The translations under genes were made by a program, and so were the position numbers. The notes beneath the pieces were generated by a model. The model saw nothing but the letters and a program-made list of their open reading frames with translations. It made no database searches and was not told the DNA's origin. 64,000 nucleotides of DNA from Streptomyces sp. P9-A2 (lineage in GTDB: Bacteria > Actinomycetota > Actinomycetes > Streptomycetales > Streptomycetaceae), in the NCBI RefSeq assembly GCF_036634175.1, contig NZ_JAZIFX010000001.1, forward strand, positions 248,001 to 312,000, written 5' to 3'. Below are positions 50,226 to 59,083 of this stretch, in pieces; the stretch's first letter is position 1; each line of letters begins with the position of its first letter.

Positions 50226-51152
50226 TCAGTGCCACACGGGCGCCGCGGGGACGCGTTCCAGGACACCGCCCGCGAACACGTCGTACAGCGGCAGCGTCTC
50301 CAGGTGGACATAGCCGATGTGGCAGTCGCAGCTGCCGAGGGGGCAGACTCTCGGCCCCAGGGCCGCCCGGTAGCTGCCGTCGTAGAGGTTGCCCAGCTCG
50401 TCGGGGACGAAGTGGCAGCGGCGGACCGTGCCCTCGCCGTCGACGGAGATCACGGACTCTCCGGTGCGGCAGGGCGCGCCCGCACTGGTGTGGGGACGGC
50501 GGCTGTAGGGGAAGAGCGGGTCCAGCCCGGTCCACACCTCGGCCTCCGCATCGTCGTAGGTGTGGCCCTCGGCCGCGTTGACCCACAGGTACACCTGGCC
50601 CGGCAGTCCGGCACGCAGCCGCCGGGCCGCTTCCAGATGCTCGGGCAGGCCGACGATGCCGACGCTGAACCGGACACCGAGACGGGCCAGTTCCTGGCAC
50701 TTGGCCGAAAAGCGGTCGTACGGGGTCTGCCCCGGATGGTAGGTGCACCACAGGGCGAGGGTGTCGAGGTCGGCGTCGGCGAGCCAGTCGGTGCGGCAGC
50801 TGAGGTTGGTCTGGATGGCGACCCGCCGGATGTGCGGCCGATGGGAGAGTTCCGTCAGGGCACGCCGGTACCAGGAGCGGACCAGCCCCTCGCCCCAGGG
50901 GGTGAAGAGGAGGGAGAGGCGGTCGCCGCTCTGCGCGGTGGCCCAGCGGGTGAACCGCTCCAGGGCGGCGCGGTCGGCGCGCAGTTGCTCCCGGCTGTCA
51001 CGGCGCTTGGCGAAGGGGCAGTACGGGCAGTCGTAGTCGCACGAGGCGAGTGGGCCCCGGTAGAGCACGGTCAGGTCCATGGGGCTGGTCGGGGGGCCGG
51101 GCACGGGGCCGGGCATGAGGCCGGGCATGGGGCCGGGCATGGGGCGGTTCAC
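50226..51152 (-). CDS. Radical SAM protein, STM4011 family
   Basis: 308 residues. The [4Fe-4S] motif CDYDCPYC (C-x3-C-x2-C) lies near residue 42 and is followed by PFAKRRDSREQL. A C-terminal Cys set (CRTGE, RRCHFVPDE, RVCPLGSCDCHIGY) resembles a SPASM/twitch-type auxiliary cluster, typical of enzymes acting on peptides or proteins. It should generate a 5'-deoxyadenosyl radical on an unknown substrate. It is the last gene of the STM4015-STM4011 operon, 10 bases after STM4012. From GTG 51152 the protein starts with a repeated MPGP segment made by a 12-base DNA repeat; family members I recall begin at MDLTVLYRGPL (ATG 51080). Confidence 0.9.
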   Translation of the reverse strand: MNRPMPGPMPGLMPGPVPGPPTSPMDLTVLYRGPLASCDYDCPYCPFAKRRDSREQLRADRAALERFTRWATAQSGDRLSLLFTPWGEGLVRSWYRRALTELSHRPHIRRVAIQTNLSCRTDWLADADLDTLALWCTYHPGQTPYDRFSAKCQELARLGVRFSVGIVGLPEHLEAARRLRAGLPGQVYLWVNAAEGHTYDDAEAEVWTGLDPLFPYSRRPHTSAGAPCRTGESVISVDGEGTVRRCHFVPDELGNLYDGSYRAALGPRVCPLGSCDCHIGYVHLETLPLYDVFAGGVLERVPAAPVWH

Positions 51153-51162
51153 GGGGCGGGTC

Positions 51163-52554
51163 TCACTTCCGCTCGTAGGCGGCCATGGCGGCCCGGACGG
51201 CCGGGGAGAACAGCTCCGGACCGATGGCGTCGGAGTGGGCGAGCCCTTCCCGGGTCAGCCGCAGCAGCGGGGTGTGCGGGCCGTCGTCTGCCAGCAGGCC
51301 GCGCCCGGTGAACCGGGACAGTTCGGTGCCGAAGTCGTCCTGGGGCGTGCTGCCGAACCGGGCCCGGTAGTCGGCGGTGTCGAGTCCGTCCGCCTGGAGC
51401 AGTGACTGGATGAGGTGACGGCGGCGGGCCTCTCCGGTGTCGATGCGGCGGCCGTACTCGGCGTGGGCGAAGTCGGCGGACGGGCGGGAGACGTAGTCGT
51501 CGATGATGCCGCGGATCTCGTGCATGCCGACGGCGTAGTCGAAGGAGTAGTGCAGGCCGGCGGTGTACGAGCGGGCGCCACAGCCGAGGCCGATCATGCC
51601 GTCGGTCTGACAGGCGTAGTCGTCGGCGCCCTGCGGCGGGGCGTCGGCCCGGCGGAACATGCGCATGGACCGCTGGGTGTAGCCGCGGGCGAGGAGGTGG
51701 TCGCGGCCCAGCCGGTACAGGCGCAGCCGCTGCTCGTCCCAGGCCGGGTCGGTGTCCGGTCCACGGCGGCCGAGGCCGGTCAGGGGGCGTATGTAGAGCG
51801 GGTAGAGGTAGAGCTCCTCGGGGTGCCAGGCCAGGGCCGCGTCCAGGGAGCGCAGCCAGGACCGCTCGGTCTGGCCGTCGATGCCGTAGATCAGGTCGAT
51901 GTTGAGGACGGGGATCCGGGCGTCGCGGACGCGGCCGAGGGCCGCCTCGACGTCGGCGCGGCGCTGCGGCCGGACGGCGGCGCGGGCCTCGGTGTCGTCG
52001 AAGCTCTGGACGCCGAGGCTGAGGCGGGTGGTGCCGCGCGCGGCGAGGACCTCCAGCCGGTCGGCGGTGACCGTGGCGGGCGAGGCCTCCACGGACAGGG
52101 GGACGGCGCGCAGGTCGGCGCCCATGCGGTGTTCGGCGATGTCGCACAGCCGCTCGAGTTCGGCGGCGGTGAGGAAGGTCGGGGTGCCGCCGCCGAAGGC
52201 CGCCGTGGCGAACCGTACGCCGTCCTGCTCTCCCAGGGCCTCCCGCACGGCGCCCGCCTGCCGGTCCAGGGCGTCCAGGTAGGCGCCGGTGAGGCCGTCC
52301 GGGGCGCCGATGCGGGTGAAGAGGTTGCAGAAGCCGCAGCGGACCTCGCAGAACGGGATGTGGAGATAGAGGGAGAGGGCGTCCTTGGGTTCGGCGGCCC
52401 ACAGGTCGCGCAGGAGCGGGCGGTCGGGGAGCTGCCGGTAGGCGGTCTTGTGCGGGTAGGCGTAGACGTAGCTCTGGTAAGGGCTCGCCGGGTGCGTTCC
52501 GGCGGTGCTGGTGCTGGTGCTGGTGCTGGTGCTGGTGCTGGTGACGATGGTCAT
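51163..52554 (-). CDS. Radical SAM protein, STM4012 family (HemN-like fold)
   Basis: 463 residues. LYLHIPFCEVRCGFCNLFTR carries the C-x3-C-x2-C cluster motif; GGTPTFLTAAE and LGVQSFDDTEARAA are HemN/HemW-like SAM-binding blocks. It resembles coproporphyrinogen dehydrogenase-type enzymes but belongs with STM4011-STM4015, so heme synthesis is unlikely. ATG 52554 overlaps the STM4013 stop (ATGA). The N-terminus has a (Ser-Thr)n tract encoded by a hexanucleotide repeat, absent from homologues as I recall. Confidence 0.9.
   Translation of the reverse strand: MTIVTSTSTSTSTSTSTAGTHPASPYQSYVYAYPHKTAYRQLPDRPLLRDLWAAEPKDALSLYLHIPFCEVRCGFCNLFTRIGAPDGLTGAYLDALDRQAGAVREALGEQDGVRFATAAFGGGTPTFLTAAELERLCDIAEHRMGADLRAVPLSVEASPATVTADRLEVLAARGTTRLSLGVQSFDDTEARAAVRPQRRADVEAALGRVRDARIPVLNIDLIYGIDGQTERSWLRSLDAALAWHPEELYLYPLYIRPLTGLGRRGPDTDPAWDEQRLRLYRLGRDHLLARGYTQRSMRMFRRADAPPQGADDYACQTDGMIGLGCGARSYTAGLHYSFDYAVGMHEIRGIIDDYVSRPSADFAHAEYGRRIDTGEARRRHLIQSLLQADGLDTADYRARFGSTPQDDFGTELSRFTGRGLLADDGPHTPLLRLTREGLAHSDAIGPELFSPAVRAAMAAYERK
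52503..52541. repeat. Hexanucleotide repeat at the start of the STM4012-family gene
   Basis: GCTGGT repeats six to seven times on the plus strand; on the coding strand it gives (Ser-Thr)n right after the first five codons. Slippage keeps the frame. Confidence 0.9.
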
Positions 52555-53504
52555 CGGGCGGCCTCGGCGGGGGTGTGGTCCAGGAGGAAGTGGGCGTAGG
52601 GCACGGTCCACACGGACGGGTGACCGATGCGGTGGCCGGTGTAGCCGTCGTCGCCGTACGCGGTGCCGTGGTCGGAGCAGACGACGGCGAAGCAGCGGCG
52701 CCTGCTGCTCGCGGCGGCGAAGAGGCGGCCGATGTGCCGGTCGACGTACTCCAGGGCGGCGGCGTGCGTCGTGCGGCTGTCGCCGTCGGCCGGGGTGGCG
52801 CCGGGCAGGTGGAACCAGTTGGGCTGGTGCAGGGCGGCCACGTTGACGAAGAGGAACAGGCGCTGTTCCTCGGGCAGTTCCCGTACGACGTCCTCCGCGC
52901 GGGTCACCTGGGCCTCAAAGGAGGTGGGCGAGGCGACCCCGAACTCCGGTTCCCAGTGGGACTCCTGGAACATGCCGGGAAGTACCGAGCCCAAAGGGCC
53001 CTGCCGGTTGAAGAAGCCGACTCCGCCGATGCACACCGTGCGGTAGCCCTCCTTCGCCAGGCCCGACACCAGGTCCGGGGTGTCGTACACGAAGGTGCCG
53101 TCGGCCGTGGTCTCGCTGCCGGCGAAACGGGCCGCGAACAGGCGGGGGTGCGGGCCGGGGGTGGCGGGCGTCGGCAGGAAGCCGGCGAAGATCGCCTGGT
53201 GCGAGGCGTAGGTGAAGCTGCCCGGGGCGTGCCGCTCCTCCCAGTGGCCGCCGGGCAGCAGGCGGGCCAGGTTCGGGGTGCGGCCGGCGGCTGTGAGTTC
53301 GGCGGCGACGTCGTGGCGGAGGGTGTCGAGCGTGACGAGCAGGATGTCGTGGCTGCCGACGATCTCGTTCATGTCGGGCTTGCTCGTGTCGGGCCCGTAC
53401 CGGTCCGGTTGCCGGGGTGCCGGGGACGCGGTGGGTGTGCCGGGGCCGGCGGCCTGCGGGTCGGGCGATACGAGCGCGGGGGGTGTCGGGTCAGGCGCTG
53501 GCAT
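52551..53504 (-). CDS. Alkaline-phosphatase-superfamily hydrolase, STM4013/SEN3800 family
   Basis: 317 residues. LLVTLDTLRHDVA (metal and nucleophile region of the sulfatase/phosphatase fold), GSFTYASHQAIFAGFLP, VNVAALHQPNW and VCSDHGTAYGDDGYTGHRIGHP (Asp-His metal ligands) give the fold. It would cleave a phosphate, sulfate or phosphonate ester or transfer such a group. ATG 53504 overlaps STM4014 by 14 bases; a later start at MNEIVGSHD would match shorter homologues. No signal peptide, so it acts in the cytosol, unlike most sulfatases. Confidence 0.88.
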   Translation of the reverse strand: MPAPDPTPPALVSPDPQAAGPGTPTASPAPRQPDRYGPDTSKPDMNEIVGSHDILLVTLDTLRHDVAAELTAAGRTPNLARLLPGGHWEERHAPGSFTYASHQAIFAGFLPTPATPGPHPRLFAARFAGSETTADGTFVYDTPDLVSGLAKEGYRTVCIGGVGFFNRQGPLGSVLPGMFQESHWEPEFGVASPTSFEAQVTRAEDVVRELPEEQRLFLFVNVAALHQPNWFHLPGATPADGDSRTTHAAALEYVDRHIGRLFAAASSRRRCFAVVCSDHGTAYGDDGYTGHRIGHPSVWTVPYAHFLLDHTPAEAAR

Positions 53505-54747
53505 GGGTGGTTCCTGTCCTGTGCGGGTCGTGCGCGTGCTGCTGGGGGTGGTGCGGGTGCCGGTGGCTCGGCTGCTGTGGGCCGCCTTCGGTGCCGGTGC
53601 CGGTGCGGTGCAGGACGGCGGTGATCTGGGCCGCGTAGGTGTCGAGGCCCTCCGCTCCGCTGCCGGGGAGGCCCGTGAGGCGGGGCAGCAGGTCACCGAA
53701 GGCGTTGACCTCGCCTACCGCGAACCGGCGCCATCCGACGGCCGGGAGCAGGTCGACGCCCACGCAGAGGGTGCGCGGGAAGCAGGCCGCCGCCCGTTCG
53801 CACACGGCGAGGACGTCGGACCACCTGCCGCCCCCCGCCTGTACGGCGTCCCGGACCGCGTCCAGGTCGCCGCGGCTTCCGCCGAGGTGGAGGTTGGTCA
53901 GCGGCGAGGTGCTGGTGCGCACCACGGCGTGGGTCGCTCGGCCGTCCACCACCACGATCCGCAGATCGGCGGCACGGCCCCCCAGCGAGGCCTTGGGAAG
54001 CCAGCGTTCGAGGTGCAGGCCGTCGGGTGCCAGCGTGTCGACGATCGCGGCGATGTCCCGCTCCCGTTCGTAACGGCGCAACTTGAGGGAGTTGAACAGG
54101 GCTCCGTCCGGAGCCAGTTCGACGGAGGTGGTGGCCCGGATACGGCCGGCGGCCGACGACTCGACGGCCAGTACACCGGAGGCCGAGGAGCCGTGTGCGA
54201 GCTTGACGAAGAGCCTCGGCATCCGGTGCTCGCGCATGACCGCGCGGACGTCGCCCCAGCCCCGGACAGGAATCGCTTCGGCACCCGAAGTGGGCGATCG
54301 GGGCACGGGGACGTCCGCAGCCGCGAGGGTCGCGTGGCAGCGCCTCTTGTCGAACAGGACGGCCAGGTCGTCGGCGTCGTCGAGCCGGACACCGCCCCGC
54401 AGTTCCCGGACCGTCCGGGTGAACCGCGCGTACCAGCGTGCCGAGCCCTCGACCCTCGTGGGGTCCCCGGTGTCCCGCAGCAGCCGGTCGACCTCCGGGT
54501 TCTCGCCGGGCGAGTCGAGCCGGACGATCTCGCCGGGCGCGAAGTCGGCTCCACCCGCACGCAGGACCTCGGCCCAGGGCACGATGCGCGGTGCGGGCAG
54601 CCCGGCCGCGCGTACGCCATCGGCGAAGAGGGCGACCCTGCGGTTCTCGGGGTTGCCCACGACGGCGAAGCACACGGGCGGGCCGGCCGTCGGGGCGGTC
54701 GGTCCGGTCCGGTCGGGCACCGGGACTGGCGGCTGGACCTGCATCAC
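53491..54747 (-). CDS. ATP-grasp-like protein, STM4014 family
   Basis: 418 residues from GTG 54747. Central RLFVKLAHGSSASGVLAVE looks like the ATP-grasp Lys and glycine-rich loop, DLRIVVVDGRATHAVVRTS the core strand, and VGVDLLPAVGWRRFAVGEVNAFGD the Mg-binding E-x-N region (RimK/glutathione-synthetase type). Such enzymes form amide or ester bonds from a carboxyl-phosphate. The last 35 residues are His/Pro-rich (HRHPHHPQQHAHDPH), possibly metal-binding. The Shine-Dalgarno GGGGAG for this gene is formed by the last codons of STM4015, 7 bases upstream. Confidence 0.85.
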   Translation of the reverse strand: MMQVQPPVPVPDRTGPTAPTAGPPVCFAVVGNPENRRVALFADGVRAAGLPAPRIVPWAEVLRAGGADFAPGEIVRLDSPGENPEVDRLLRDTGDPTRVEGSARWYARFTRTVRELRGGVRLDDADDLAVLFDKRRCHATLAAADVPVPRSPTSGAEAIPVRGWGDVRAVMREHRMPRLFVKLAHGSSASGVLAVESSAAGRIRATTSVELAPDGALFNSLKLRRYERERDIAAIVDTLAPDGLHLERWLPKASLGGRAADLRIVVVDGRATHAVVRTSTSPLTNLHLGGSRGDLDAVRDAVQAGGGRWSDVLAVCERAAACFPRTLCVGVDLLPAVGWRRFAVGEVNAFGDLLPRLTGLPGSGAEGLDTYAAQITAVLHRTGTGTEGGPQQPSHRHPHHPQQHAHDPHRTGTTHASA

Positions 54748-54754
54748 GCGGTCG

Positions 54755-55720
54755 TCACTCCCCGACGGACACGTAGCGGTTGACGGTGCCGTCCTCCTCG
54801 TCCTCGTCCTCCTCGGCGCCGTCCGGGTTCAGGTCGATCTCGACGCCCGCGGCGACGAGGGTCTCGGTCAGGCGCTGCCGGATGGGTTCGCTGAGGTAGT
54901 TGTGGTGCAGGTCGAGCTTCTTCAGGTGGGTCAGCGGCTGACCGCCGAGGAGAGCGACGGCGCCCTCGTCGCTGAGGGTTCCCATGGACAGGTCGAGCAC
55001 GTCGAGGCGGGCGACCACCGGGGCAGAGGCCACGGCGGCGGCGACCTCGTCCTGGATCTCGCTGTTGCGCAGGGCGAGGTGACGCAGGCGCGGGAAGCGG
55101 TCACCGGACAGGATCGGTTCCAGGTCTGCGGCTTCACTGTCGGCGCCGTACCACGAGGTGCCGAGCCACAGGTCGAGGTGCTCCAGCGCGGGCAGTTCGC
55201 TGGCCCCGACGCCCCGGACGACGTCCACCGGGAGCCCGCCGGACTCCATGGCCAGCGAGCGCAGCGCGTCATGACGCAGGGCGGGGAACTTCAGCCCGTT
55301 ACTGCCCCGCACCCCGAACTCCTCCAGGGCGGGGAAGCCGGCCAGCAGGGGGGAGACGTCGGTATGGGTGATCCAGGAGATCTCGCACTCCTCGGACATG
55401 ATGTCCCCGAGGAACAGCGCCCGCAGCGCGGGCAGGCGGTCGCGCGCTGCCAGCAGCGCCTCCATGACCTTGGACGGGGCCGAGTCGTACGCGCCTTCCC
55501 AGGGGCCGATGATCAGGGCCCGCACCCTTGTCGTGTCGACCGTGGCGCAGAACCGGGCGAAGGCCTCCTCCCACGTCTCGTCGGCGTCGTACGCGTCGCT
55601 GGCGGCGATCCGCCAGGCCACGGTGTCGGGCCGGGGCAGATCCGCTGCCGTGTCGGACGGTCCGGGGGAGTGGAAGGCGCGCAGGCCGTACAGCTCCTCG
55701 ATGTGGTCGACGTAGGACAT
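54755..55720 (-). CDS. Leucine-rich-repeat protein, STM4015 family
   Basis: 321 residues, first gene of the operon; GGAG lies 9 bases before the ATG. After an N-terminal domain (VAWRIAASDAYDADETWEEAFARF) come leucine-rich repeats: LPALRALFLGD, FPALEEFGVRGSN, LPALEHLDLWLG, FPRLRHLALRNSEI, VARLDVLDLSMG, LTHLKKLDLHHN. The very C-terminus is a detached acidic stretch (EEDEDEEDG) followed by NRYVSVGE. Repeat proteins of this kind bind other proteins, so it may be the scaffold or the substrate for the two radical SAM enzymes and the ligase. Cytosolic. Confidence 0.9.
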   Translation of the reverse strand: MSYVDHIEELYGLRAFHSPGPSDTAADLPRPDTVAWRIAASDAYDADETWEEAFARFCATVDTTRVRALIIGPWEGAYDSAPSKVMEALLAARDRLPALRALFLGDIMSEECEISWITHTDVSPLLAGFPALEEFGVRGSNGLKFPALRHDALRSLAMESGGLPVDVVRGVGASELPALEHLDLWLGTSWYGADSEAADLEPILSGDRFPRLRHLALRNSEIQDEVAAAVASAPVVARLDVLDLSMGTLSDEGAVALLGGQPLTHLKKLDLHHNYLSEPIRQRLTETLVAAGVEIDLNPDGAEEDEDEEDGTVNRYVSVGE

Positions 55721-55831
55721 GCGGGCGGCTCCTGACATGGGGTGATCGAGCGGAGGACATGGAGGTCCGGCACCACCTCGGAGCCCGGGATGCGAGCCGT
55801 CCGACGGTGCGTGCAGCAGTTCTACCAACAG

Positions 55832-55880
55832 CCACTGACACCCCCCGATGGCGGGCCCGGCCGGGGGCTGTTGTCAGTGG
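55832..55880. promoter_or_regulatory. Nested inverted repeat in the divergent promoter gap
   Basis: CCACTGACA (55832-55840) pairs with TGTCAGTGG (55872-55880); inside, CCCCC (from 55841) can pair with GGGGG (55863-55867). It lies between the STM4015 operon and the 108-residue gene, which diverge, so it could control both sides. Confidence 0.55.
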
Positions 55881-55941
55881 CGGCTCGTACGGTCCTCGCA
55901 TGGACTCCGGAGCACCGTGCGCCGGAGTGGAGGGGAGATCC

Positions 55942-56268
55942 ATGTACCGGCAGGGAGACGTGCTGATCGTGCCCGTCGCGCAGGAGGCGGTGCCCGCGCA
56001 CGTCCCGGACGCGCCCAAGGAACCTCGGGACGTCCGGGGCCGGCTGGTGCTGGCCCTGGGAGAGGTCACCGGGCACGCGCACGCGGTCGTCGGAAAGGGC
56101 GAACTGGTGAGCGAGCCGGGCCCCTTCGGTCCGCTACTGCTGCATCTGCCCGAGGGCGGCCGGGTGGTGCACGAGGAGCACGCGACGATCCCGCTGCCCA
56201 AGGGGTGGTACCGCGTGATCCGGCAGCGCGAGTACATCCCCGGTTCCGTACGGATCGTCGCCGACTGA
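55942..56268 (+). CDS. Small conserved protein paired with DUF6745
   Basis: 108 residues from ATG 55942 preceded by GGGGAG. Beta-rich: MYRQGDVLIVPV, a GEVTGHAHAVVG turn, then LLHLPEGGRVVHEEHATIPLPKGWYRVIRQREY. The two histidine-containing turns (GHAHA, EEHA) and short length suggest a small barrel or ligand-binding fold. I recall such MYRQGDV proteins directly before DUF6745 proteins in actinobacteria. Divergent from STM4015. Function unknown. Confidence 0.8.
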   Translation: MYRQGDVLIVPVAQEAVPAHVPDAPKEPRDVRGRLVLALGEVTGHAHAVVGKGELVSEPGPFGPLLLHLPEGGRVVHEEHATIPLPKGWYRVIRQREYIPGSVRIVAD

Positions 56269-56389
56269 GCAGAGCGGGCGAAAAGCACCACGACGGGCAC
56301 CAGTGCGTAAGGAACACGAAGTGCACCCAGAGCACGAGCAGCACGAAGAGCACGGACCGAACGAGCGGCGCGGACAGGGGACGTTGGCA

Positions 56390-57484
56390 ATGACGACGGC
56401 GACGGCGACGGAGCGGGCGAACGGGACGGCGGCCGGTACCGGCGCGCTCGTGTCGGGGGCGGGCGGGGACGGCGCACCGGACCCGGGGCGCTGGCGTGCG
56501 TGGGCCGCGAGCGCGCAGCCCGCCGACCGGGACGCGGCCGAGGAGGGCATCCGGCTGGCGTACCGGCGGGCCGGGCTGCCGGAGCCGGAGCGGGTGGTGT
56601 GGGCCGGCTCACCGCGCGAGGGCGTGACGCTGGTGCGGCAGGGCACGGACTTCGGGGCGAGCGTGCGCGAGGCGGTGCGCACGGCACCCTGGGCTGCCGA
56701 ACGCGCGCGTCTGCACGATCGGTTGGGTGCGGCGGGCTGGGCGCGGCACTGGTCGGCGACCGGCGGCGCGCTCTGGGGCTCCACGCAGGCGCTGGTGGAC
56801 CGGATCCGCGCCGGTGTGCTCGACGAGCTCGCCGCCGACGACGACGCGGCCGCCCGTACCGGCATACAGCTGATCCTGCTGGACGCGTTGCTCGGGCAGC
56901 ACGACGCGCCGTGGCTGGCCGCGCTGGAGGCCGACGGGCCGTCCCCGCTCGACGGGCCGGCCCAGGTGTGCCGCAGCGCCGGCTGGTGGTGGCCCTTCGA
57001 GAAGGTGGCGGTGGTGTGCGAGCGCCCGGTCGCCCTGCACCGTGACGAGGCGGGCCGGCTGGACCACGGGGACGGCCCGGCGCTGGAGTTCCCCGACGGG
57101 TTCGCCCTGTGCGCCTGGCGCGGCATGCCGGTGGAGCGCGCCTTCCTGGAGGAACTGCGCACTCTCACGCCGGAACGGATCCGCGCCGAGGAGAACGCCG
57201 AGCTGCGCCGGGTGATGCTGGAGTACTACGGCTACGACCGCTACCTGGCCGATTCCGGGGCGCAGCCCGTGCACCGGGACGAGACGGGCATCCTCTGGCG
57301 GGTCGAACTCGACGGCGACGAGGCGGTCGTGATGGTGGAGGTCGTCAACTCCACGCCAGAGCCCGACGGCACCCACCGCACGTACTGGCTGCGGGTGCCG
57401 CCGACGACGCGGACCGCCCGGGAGGGGGTGGCCTGGACGTTCGGGCTGGAGCCCGGGGTGTACGAGCCGTTGCGGCAGACGTGA
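56390..57484 (+). CDS. DUF6745-domain protein
   Basis: 364 residues from ATG 56390. Ala-rich N-terminus, then GRWRAWAASAQPADRDAAEEGIRLAYRRAGLPEPERVVWAGSP, a hallmark N-part, and a C-part with WWWPFEKVAVVCERP and LEFPDGFALCAWRGMPV typical of DUF6745. No catalytic motif I can name; no membrane span. It follows the 108-residue gene by 121 bases in the same direction. An upstream in-frame GTG (56303) would add a His/Glu-rich extension (HEVHPEHEQHEEHG). Confidence 0.82.
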   Translation: MTTATATERANGTAAGTGALVSGAGGDGAPDPGRWRAWAASAQPADRDAAEEGIRLAYRRAGLPEPERVVWAGSPREGVTLVRQGTDFGASVREAVRTAPWAAERARLHDRLGAAGWARHWSATGGALWGSTQALVDRIRAGVLDELAADDDAAARTGIQLILLDALLGQHDAPWLAALEADGPSPLDGPAQVCRSAGWWWPFEKVAVVCERPVALHRDEAGRLDHGDGPALEFPDGFALCAWRGMPVERAFLEELRTLTPERIRAEENAELRRVMLEYYGYDRYLADSGAQPVHRDETGILWRVELDGDEAVVMVEVVNSTPEPDGTHRTYWLRVPPTTRTAREGVAWTFGLEPGVYEPLRQT

Positions 57485-57857: not shown

Positions 57858-58379
57858 ATGGATGAGCCGTCGGTCCGCGCTGTGGGCTGGGCGCGTTCCC
57901 TGCCGATGGGTGGAGGGGTGAAGGCCGCCCGGGACTGGGCCCGGGAGCACCTCGACGCCCTGGGATGGACCACCACGGCGCCCGAGACGGCGGACGCCGT
58001 ACTGCTGACCGTGTCGGAGCTGGTCACCAACGCGCACAAGCACGCCCACAGCAACGCCCAGTTGACCCTGTCCCGCGACGACAACTGTCTGCACATCTCC
58101 GTCCACGACACGTCGGCCGAGCTGCCGGCCCGCCGCAGCCCGGGGACCGAGGGGACCGGCGGACGCGGTATGCTCCTCGTGGACGCACTGGCCGACGAGT
58201 GGGAGAGCCGCCCCTGTCCCCACGGCAAGTCGGTCACCGCCTGCTTCCGCGGGCCGCGGGCCGCGGGCCGAGAAGGCGCCGGGGGCAAGAGCGGAGCACT
58301 GACCGGGCCACTGTCCGCGGGGCGGCCGCGCCGGAATACGATCGGTCGATCCCGATCTCCGAGGAGTCCTGTCCGGTGA
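57858..58379 (+). CDS. Anti-sigma-factor-type ATP-binding protein (HATPase_c, RsbW-like)
   Basis: 173 residues; AAGGAG lies 7 bases upstream. GHKL ATPase marks: N-box SELVTNAHKHAH, VHDTSAELP, and GGRGMLLVDALADEW. Single-domain GHKL proteins in Streptomyces act as serine kinases on anti-anti-sigma factors or bind sigma factors. The last 45 residues are Arg/Gly/Ser-rich and not part of the fold. The stop overlaps the start of cbiZ (GTGA). Confidence 0.88.
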   Translation: MDEPSVRAVGWARSLPMGGGVKAARDWAREHLDALGWTTTAPETADAVLLTVSELVTNAHKHAHSNAQLTLSRDDNCLHISVHDTSAELPARRSPGTEGTGGRGMLLVDALADEWESRPCPHGKSVTACFRGPRAAGREGAGGKSGALTGPLSAGRPRRNTIGRSRSPRSPVR

Positions 58380-59083
58380 CCGCCGTCCTCCCCCCGCCCC
58401 GCGCCTCCGCCGGGCTGCTGCGCCCGCGCCGTCTGACCCGCATCGAGGACGGTGGACGCCTGCACGCCCTGCTGTGGACTCCCGGGCCGGGCATGCGGAT
58501 GATCAGCAGCGCGGTACTGGGCGGCGGCATCGGCGAACGGTGCTGGGTCCTCAACGCCCAGGTCTCCCACGGGTACGGGCGCACCGACCCGGACCGGCAC
58601 CTCGCCGAACTCGCCGCGGACGCGGGCGCGCGCGGCCCGGGGGTCGGTCTGATGACGGCCGCCGACGTCTCGGCGTATGCCCACGCGCACGACAACGGCG
58701 CGGAGGCGATCGTCACCTCGGGCATCGACGTACGCGGCTGGGCGGCGGTCCCCGAGGCCCAGGAGGCGGCCTCGGGAGGCGGTGCGCGGGTGCCTGGCAC
58801 GATCAACATCGTGGTGGCGCTGCCGGTGCCGCTCACCGACGCTGCTCTGGTCAACGCGGTGGCCACCGCGACGGAGGCGAAGACGCAGGCCCTGCTGGAG
58901 GCCGGTCACGACTGTTCCGGCACCCCCACCGACGCGGTGTGCGTCGCTGCCCGCGCCCCCTCCTCCGGCGAGACGCCGCACGCCTTCGCCGGGCCACGCT
59001 CCCCCTGGGGAGCACGGCTGGCACGCGTCGTCCACCGCGCGGTGCACGACGCGACCCCCTCACCGTCACCGTCCTCGCTCTGA
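58376..59083 (+). CDS. cbiZ: Adenosylcobinamide amidohydrolase
   Basis: 235 residues from GTG 58376; GAGGAG is 9 bases upstream. Contains ERCWVLNAQVSHGYGRTDPDRHL, GVGLMTAADV, PGTINIVVALPVPLTDAALVNAVATATEAKTQAL and CSGTPTDAVCVAA, the conserved blocks of CbiZ. It removes the aminopropanol arm from adenosylcobinamide so that adenosylcobyric acid can re-enter cobalamin synthesis. No other cobalamin or B12-transport gene is near. Its coupling to a sigma-regulatory ATPase gene is unusual. Confidence 0.88.
   Translation: MTAVLPPPRASAGLLRPRRLTRIEDGGRLHALLWTPGPGMRMISSAVLGGGIGERCWVLNAQVSHGYGRTDPDRHLAELAADAGARGPGVGLMTAADVSAYAHAHDNGAEAIVTSGIDVRGWAAVPEAQEAASGGGARVPGTINIVVALPVPLTDAALVNAVATATEAKTQALLEAGHDCSGTPTDAVCVAARAPSSGETPHAFAGPRSPWGARLARVVHRAVHDATPSPSPSSL

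Follow-up and report, generated by a model that had tools for sequence, protein, structure and literature searches.

A 64,000-nucleotide stretch of Streptomyces sp. P9-A2 DNA (contig NZ_JAZIFX010000001.1, positions 248,001 to 312,000; hereafter the window), taken from a genome of 8.39 Mb, carries on its minus strand five genes, arranged head to tail between positions 50226 and 55720 and transcribed in the order STM4015-STM4014-STM4013-STM4012-STM4011. All five deduced proteins exceeded the curated NCBIfam cut-offs in a profile search, which bears out the claim of a preliminary description of this DNA that a complete, contiguous STM4011-STM4015 operon is present. The features of the operon are the following.

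50226..51080, minus strand: STM4011, radical S-adenosylmethionine (SAM) protein (NF038073, 411 bits against a cut-off of 200; reading frame open to GTG 51152)
51163..52554, minus strand: STM4012, HemN-like radical SAM protein (NF006067, 645 bits against a cut-off of 380)
52551..53504, minus strand: STM4013, alkaline-phosphatase-superfamily hydrolase/transferase (NF038075, 429 bits against a cut-off of 250)
53491..54747, minus strand: STM4014, ATP-grasp ligase (NF038074, 453 bits against a cut-off of 175)
54755..55720, minus strand: STM4015, acidic leucine-rich repeat (LRR) protein (NF038076, 405 bits against a cut-off of 275)
54758..54820, minus strand: coding positions of residues 301-321 of STM4015, the flexible C-terminal tail, which reads NRYVSVGE before the stop codon (terminal Glu invariant)

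STM4013 and STM4012 overlap by 4 bases, and STM4014 and STM4013 by 14 bases, given an STM4013 start at ATG 53504; ATG 53372, from which the family model runs, is equally plausible. The gap from STM4015 to STM4014 is 7-10 bases. The 10-base gap before STM4011 depends on a start at GTG 51152; with ATG 51080, where most aligned STM4011 relatives begin, it widens to 82 bases. Pfam models detected radical SAM domains in STM4011 (below cut-off) and STM4012, the sulfatase/phosphodiesterase fold in STM4013 and borderline LRRs in STM4015, with no match at all in STM4014.

The co-occurrence of the five families, whose tabulation the preliminary description had proposed, was followed in a class sample of 148 genomes, searched for all of them, and in a family sample of 200 genomes, searched throughout for STM4011, STM4014 and STM4015. 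In the class sample 15 genomes had all five families over cut-off and the other 133 had none of them (the STM4014 model also gave weaker ATP-grasp matches, in 62 genomes). Owing to this all-or-none pattern, the grouping is not a product of chance. In the family sample STM4011 and STM4014 were found in the same 97 genomes, and STM4015 in these 97 and in six more, so that 6 of the 103 STM4015-bearing genomes have neither STM4011 nor STM4014. Frequent single members had been named as evidence against a functional unit, a check that the proposal largely withstood: STM4011 and STM4014 were always paired, and STM4015 stands without these two in those six genomes.

Gene content was compared in the 80 top-ranking stretches (named loci, nearly all from Streptomyces) out of 582 confirmed ones found with STM4011, 75 of which span far enough upstream to be judged, and in 13 records of a plasmid collection. 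All five genes are present in 75/75 spanning loci and in 12/13 plasmid-collection records, and their order is kept in 71/75 and 11/13, respectively, by a crude measure that takes reading-frame starts from stop to stop. The exception among the plasmid-collection records is Bacteroides finegoldii, with no STM4012 and a short piece of STM4013 only. The complete set was seen in four phyla, Actinomycetota, Deinococcota, Pseudomonadota and Bacillota; in Bacteroidota the locus was incomplete. The hosts include soil actinomycetes, Deinococcus, Paenibacillus, Methylobacterium and Salmonella.

Two genomes matched STM4011 as overlapping pieces (G158:C1:819750-820394 and G242:C1:2874490-2875315), which are below cut-off in one of them and two in number in the other; the gene may truly be broken there, or the sequence may be faulty, and both genomes also have STM4014 and STM4015. 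In one genome (G073:C52:2609-3379, locus L055) a further STM4013-like gene, also over the family cut-off, lies on a different contig from the operon. In two Salmonella records labelled as plasmids (L140 and L161) the operon is flanked by glnA, glnL, glnG and typA, which suggests that these records are pieces of chromosome. The Salmonella operon gave no megablast match in 5,426 E. coli genomes, a search that needs roughly 85% identity for detection.

The C-terminal tail of STM4015

The invariance of the last residue of STM4015 first appeared in an alignment of 40 copies and is a new observation. Glu is terminal in 141/141 full-length locus copies, after exclusion of 8 of 149 rows (four cut by locus ends, three Glu-ending fragments and one wrong-frame reading frame), and also in 240/240 relatives among the matches listed, the best 120 from each of two database searches. 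Two further positions of the tail are nearly as constant, namely Tyr or Phe six residues from the end (138/141 copies, with Tyr in 113/141) and Val, Leu or Ile three from the end (134/141). Representative tails are RYVSVGE in the window, RYPSLTE in Paenibacillus, YYPMITE in Bacteroides and RYCSVAE in Calothrix; the Salmonella tail, MNAMYTE, deviates at both conserved positions and keeps the Glu end. The linker upstream of the tail is acidic, with a median of 35% Asp and Glu. In a structure model built with 28 sequences (mean predicted local distance difference test score, pLDDT, of 87.4), values lie for the most part at about 90 or higher across the LRR domain and at about 35-49 in the tail, which is accordingly predicted to be disordered. 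Many residues of the LRR domain are likewise invariant. A conserved last residue was not found in STM4011, STM4012, STM4013 or STM4014.

Several copies of STM4015 can accompany a single STM4014, eight being seen in one genome (G174). The genome carrying the window has a second copy remote from the operon (G000:C1:3570637-3571485; L053 8638-9597), with an intact tail, RYVAVSE. The Calothrix relative is plasmid-borne (L145 2014-3288), and STM4011 was not found on that plasmid, the only part of this genome searched. The Bacteroides protein (L141 6513-7586) has an N-terminal WGR domain. A solved relative of STM4015 is 2ra8, a structural-genomics entry for the LRR protein Q64V53 of Bacteroides fragilis (E 2e-72), in which the match extends into a tail ending YPMITE; it differs in its first 85 residues, which lie outside the STM4015 family match, and in eight residues after the tail, presumed to be a tag.

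A natural experiment is offered by the six family-sample genomes that hold STM4015 without STM4011, STM4014 and STM4012; STM4013 is likewise absent from the stretches fetched around these six orphan genes, to which that search was confined. One of the six tails is gone, one ends in Asp and has Cys in place of the aromatic residue, two look normal, and two contain rare residues: RHVAVEE, with His six from the end (1/141 locus copies) and Glu before the last residue (0/141), and RYTAVDE, with Asp before the last residue (1/141). The terminal Glu is therefore lost in 2/6 orphans, against 0/27 copies fetched alongside from operon genomes (p 0.028) and 0/168 pooled copies (p 0.001), both values being uncorrected for kinship. 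The 27 copies are a non-random set, chiefly low-scoring copies, copies with a match that ended early and copies from many-copy genomes, from which a duplicate (L162/L173), a Glu-ending short fragment (L178) and a wrong-frame reading frame (L183) were left out; one genome behind them is G158, with STM4011 in pieces. The 168 comprise these 27 and the earlier 141, including the Calothrix copy, and may count the same strain twice. In this small sample, the losses fit a relaxed constraint on the tail after loss of the enzymes.

The four enzymes

STM4014 (window residues D133-K134, K182, D332 and N348) is closest to LysX, ArgX and RimK both by PDB profile and by fold comparison, with a fold margin over D-cycloserine synthetase of less than 1 Z for the lowest rows of this group; the graspetide ligase PsnB ranks fourth in Foldseek. 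It does not belong to the Pfam RimK family (PF08443), since the window protein has no Pfam match at E 1 or better; 21/61 relatives match PF08443 (best E 5.7e-5), and other ATP-grasp models match more members. RimK is a ligase that extends the C-terminus of a folded protein, ribosomal protein S6 (RpsF) (PMC7343187, PMC7907349). The resemblance to the RimK-S6 pair lies in an ATP-grasp ligase acting on a folded protein, and the difference in the ribosomal nature of that substrate. To our knowledge, RimK has no radical SAM partners.

In STM4011, the CX3CX2C motif (C14/C18/C21) and five auxiliary cysteines (C204, C222, C246, C251 and C253) are invariant in 27/27 relatives. The auxiliary cysteines fit a Twitch/SPASM spacing, C-x12-G-x4-C followed by CX4CXC; the general form of the first element is C-x9-15-G-x4-C. 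In its C-terminal part only, the STM4011 profile matches the Twitch region of SkfB (E 7.6e-4), and the Pfam SPASM model (PF13186) is matched weakly, at E 1 or better, by 16/27 members (best 0.0018), the window protein not among them; the single member for which bits were seen scored 18.3 against a cut-off of 21.5. In SkfB, the auxiliary cluster is held by a CXC pair and one further Cys, and the peptide is recognised via a separate recognition element (PMC6231123). The C-terminal cysteine pattern of this peptide-modifying SPASM/Twitch enzyme, ending in CX4CXC, aligns with that of STM4011 (PMC6231123). The two differ in that SkfB has 412 residues including an N-terminal recognition domain, whereas STM4011, with 284, starts at the radical SAM domain and leaves no room for one.

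Haloacid-dehalogenase-type (HAD) sequences accompany STM4011 twice: a HAD hydrolase gene overlaps it by 16 bases in Salmonella (L140 9834-10568), and a HAD domain is fused to it in Bacteroides finegoldii (L141 8965-10527). The similarity between these HAD parts is weak (E 0.01), and their position hints at a phosphorylated intermediate.

STM4012 (radical SAM cysteines C69/C73/C76) has as nearest solved structures HemN (1olt, E 3.7e-27) and the methyltransferase NocN (9p2u, E 1.3e-16). It scores below the cut-offs of both HemW (135 against 205 bits) and HemN (126 against 325 bits), on which ground a role in haem synthesis was rejected; the preliminary description had named haem or queuosine activity of the two radical SAM proteins as evidence against its own proposal. 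STM4013 matches best the nucleotide pyrophosphatases/phosphodiesterases 7mw8 (E 1e-7) and 2gsn (E 2.9e-7), and its residues D60, T98, D278-H279, H291 and H295 are invariant in 31/31 sequences. The nucleophile position is occupied by Thr98 in F-T-Y-A-x-H; formylglycine sulfatases have the nucleophile motif Cys/Ser-x-Pro/Ala-x-Arg. The maturation of STM4013 as a sulfatase by STM4011 was accordingly rejected, Thr standing at the position of the formylglycine precursor.

Divergent genes and other neighbours

Two genes are transcribed divergently from the operon in the window, and a promoter/terminator scan of 55650-56420 found neither element.

55942..56268, plus strand: 'GDV' protein, 108 amino acids, with invariant His/Glu residues and a C-terminal Asp (no family in Pfam or NCBIfam)
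56390..57484, plus strand: DUF6745 protein, PF20530 (Pfam, 395 bits; reading frame open from 56303)

By taking 50226-55720 as the whole unit, the preliminary description omitted these two genes (55942-57484), as it overlooked the conserved tail. GDV was found in 64/75 and DUF6745 in 63/75 spanning loci, both together in 63 and GDV alone in one, and the pair in 7/13 plasmid-collection records, including Deinococcus and Methylobacterium, in the latter of which all seven genes are co-oriented. Neither was found in 11/75 named loci and 6/13 plasmid-collection records, the pair being missing from those of Paenibacillus, Salmonella, Bacteroides and Embleya. High-scoring DUF6745 proteins (>300 bits) occur in 7/15 operon genomes and 0/133 others of the class sample, and distant ones in four of the 133. 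GDV and DUF6745 are accessories rather than core members. Beyond the seven genes and frames overlapping them, a comparison from 16 loci found no conserved neighbour common to more than 26 other loci.

The invariant residues of GDV, including conserved His and Glu, are found in 28/28 relatives, and the protein ends in Asp in 16/16; no Pfam or NCBIfam family was found for it and PDB searches gave no result. The N-terminal part of DUF6745 appears LRR-like by eye in Deinococcus and Methylobacterium. Phage families of unknown function match both proteins (GDV, phrog_27831, E 1.2e-12; DUF6745, phrog_31813, E 1.2e-7). On a Deinococcus ficus plasmid (L146 7989-11222), GDV and DUF6745 adjoin a VWA-domain protein without STM4011, and in D. 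taeanensis a VWA protein also adjoins the operon (L143 171-2189). Past DUF6745 in the window lies a frame with a CbiZ (adenosylcobinamide amidohydrolase) domain (57965-59083), and a CbiZ-type gene follows DUF6745 in Streptomyces fungicidicus as well.

Possible function of the operon

The open-licence literature yielded no function or reaction for STM4011-STM4015 or DUF6745, single genes being named in tables only, and nothing on this gene set was found there under the combination of LRR, radical SAM and ATP-grasp proteins. The earlier statement that the genes are known only as named protein families therefore stands. On balance, we consider it slightly more likely than not that STM4015 acts as a folded carrier or substrate, with STM4014 extending its C-terminal Glu and the two radical SAM enzymes reworking that end; the tail as substrate, the ligation and the order of steps are what we infer. 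The last Glu of the flexible tail on a folded, very acidic LRR protein would serve as the chemical handle. STM4014 would activate a carboxylate of this residue and join it to the amine of a small molecule or amino acid, STM4011 and STM4012 might next rework the attached group or neighbouring tail residues, and STM4013, nucleotide-pyrophosphatase-like and with Thr98 as its likely nucleophile, may add or remove a phosphate or nucleotide. Glu ligation with radical chemistry is the simplest account of the fixed terminal position, the ligase fold, the acidity of STM4015 and the many STM4015 copies per STM4014. The preliminary description had suggested that an intracellular protein is modified after translation, or a small cofactor made on a scaffold, with a repeat protein as partner; the invariant Glu, the LysX/RimK-like fold and the co-occurrence strengthen that direction, and the mechanism itself stays at the level of a proposal.

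The nearest parallel is with LysW/LysX and ArgW/ArgX, where an acidic carrier bears a C-terminal Glu on its tail and the ATP-grasp partner is of the fold closest to STM4014 (PMC10433800, PMC9303977). LysW and ArgW differ in being small zinc proteins with an EDWGE tail, whereas STM4015 has an LRR fold and mostly a [YF]-x-x-[VLI]-x-E tail. Kinase, reductase, aminotransferase and peptidase are the partners in the LysW system, unlike the two radical SAM proteins and the phosphatase-fold enzyme that accompany STM4015. With LysW it shares the position and invariance of Glu at the tail end only, its acceptor role being putative, and it was not filed in the LysW family, as carrier fold and tail motif differ. 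The linkage in LysW is an isopeptide bond from the Glu gamma-carboxylate to an amine, and such a bond in STM4015 would be conjectural. In pearlins, an amino acid is attached at the C-terminus of a ribosomally made carrier and reworked, once by a radical SAM enzyme; the carrier there is a peptide whose C-terminal sequence alone is required, ligation proceeds via aminoacyl-tRNA, and a protease frees the product (PMC9303977).

We prefer a group that remains on the LRR protein to one that leaves as a metabolite, since no recognisable peptidase is found among the seven proteins, two of which, GDV and DUF6745, have no assigned function. A more specific version, held tentatively, is a new protein-bound prosthetic group, built by the radical SAM enzymes on the amine that the LysX-like ligase puts on the LRR C-terminal Glu and delivered by the LRR surface of each paralogue to a different partner; this would amount to carrier-protein logic on an LRR body, across four phyla. 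For families named by locus number only, the last residue of STM4015 now appears a likely site of chemistry, which reduces a vague cluster to one mass-spectrometry experiment and, if the proposal is true, would add a novel class of carriers or modified proteins with radical enzymes.

Rather unlikely, in our judgement, is that the tail is a leader-like docking signal and the LRR protein a scaffold, with the radical SAM enzymes and the ligase working at other sites of that protein or on a small molecule apart from it. The predicted disorder of the tail, the invariance of many LRR residues and the separate recognition element of SkfB, the nearest solved relative of STM4011 (PMC6231123), are consistent with docking, but a docking motif does not need Glu to be exactly last, as it is in 141/141 copies, and the closest folds to STM4014 act on a protein C-terminus. 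We also incline against a LysW-like carrier, on which STM4015 would bear a transient intermediate and the product would leave as an unbound small molecule or cofactor. The logic of this reading is that of the LysW pathway and the pearlins (PMC10433800, PMC9303977), and the invariant His/Glu set of GDV could be the site of a metal-dependent hydrolase; however, besides the missing peptidase, no further neighbour is widely conserved, GDV and DUF6745 themselves are lacking from part of the loci, and several paralogous carriers per genome would be unnecessary for one product.

A graspetide-like cross-link, in which STM4014 would join the tail Glu to Ser, Thr or Lys within STM4015, is improbable. 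Although PsnB is fourth in Foldseek, 63/141 tails lack Lys, Ser, Thr and Cys altogether in their last seven residues and no such position is conserved, which argues against an internal link to these residues and led to its rejection; the Tyr six from the end (113/141) is the remaining potential acceptor. Finally, a chance neighbourhood, with radical SAM proteins that are conventional enzymes of haem synthesis or sulfatase maturation, is very improbable: STM4012 is HemN-like, and the pairing of a radical SAM protein with a sulfatase-fold neighbour resembles anaerobic sulfatase maturation, but STM4012 falls below the HemN and HemW cut-offs, STM4013 has Thr in F-T-Y-A-x-H instead of the sulfatase motif, and the five-gene set is all-or-none over cut-off in 148 genomes. 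For a role in anti-phage defence, the PADLOC models gave only two matches, both weak, to STM4012 (E 3.6e-6 over 121 residues) and to STM4015 (E 0.003), and this reading was not adopted.

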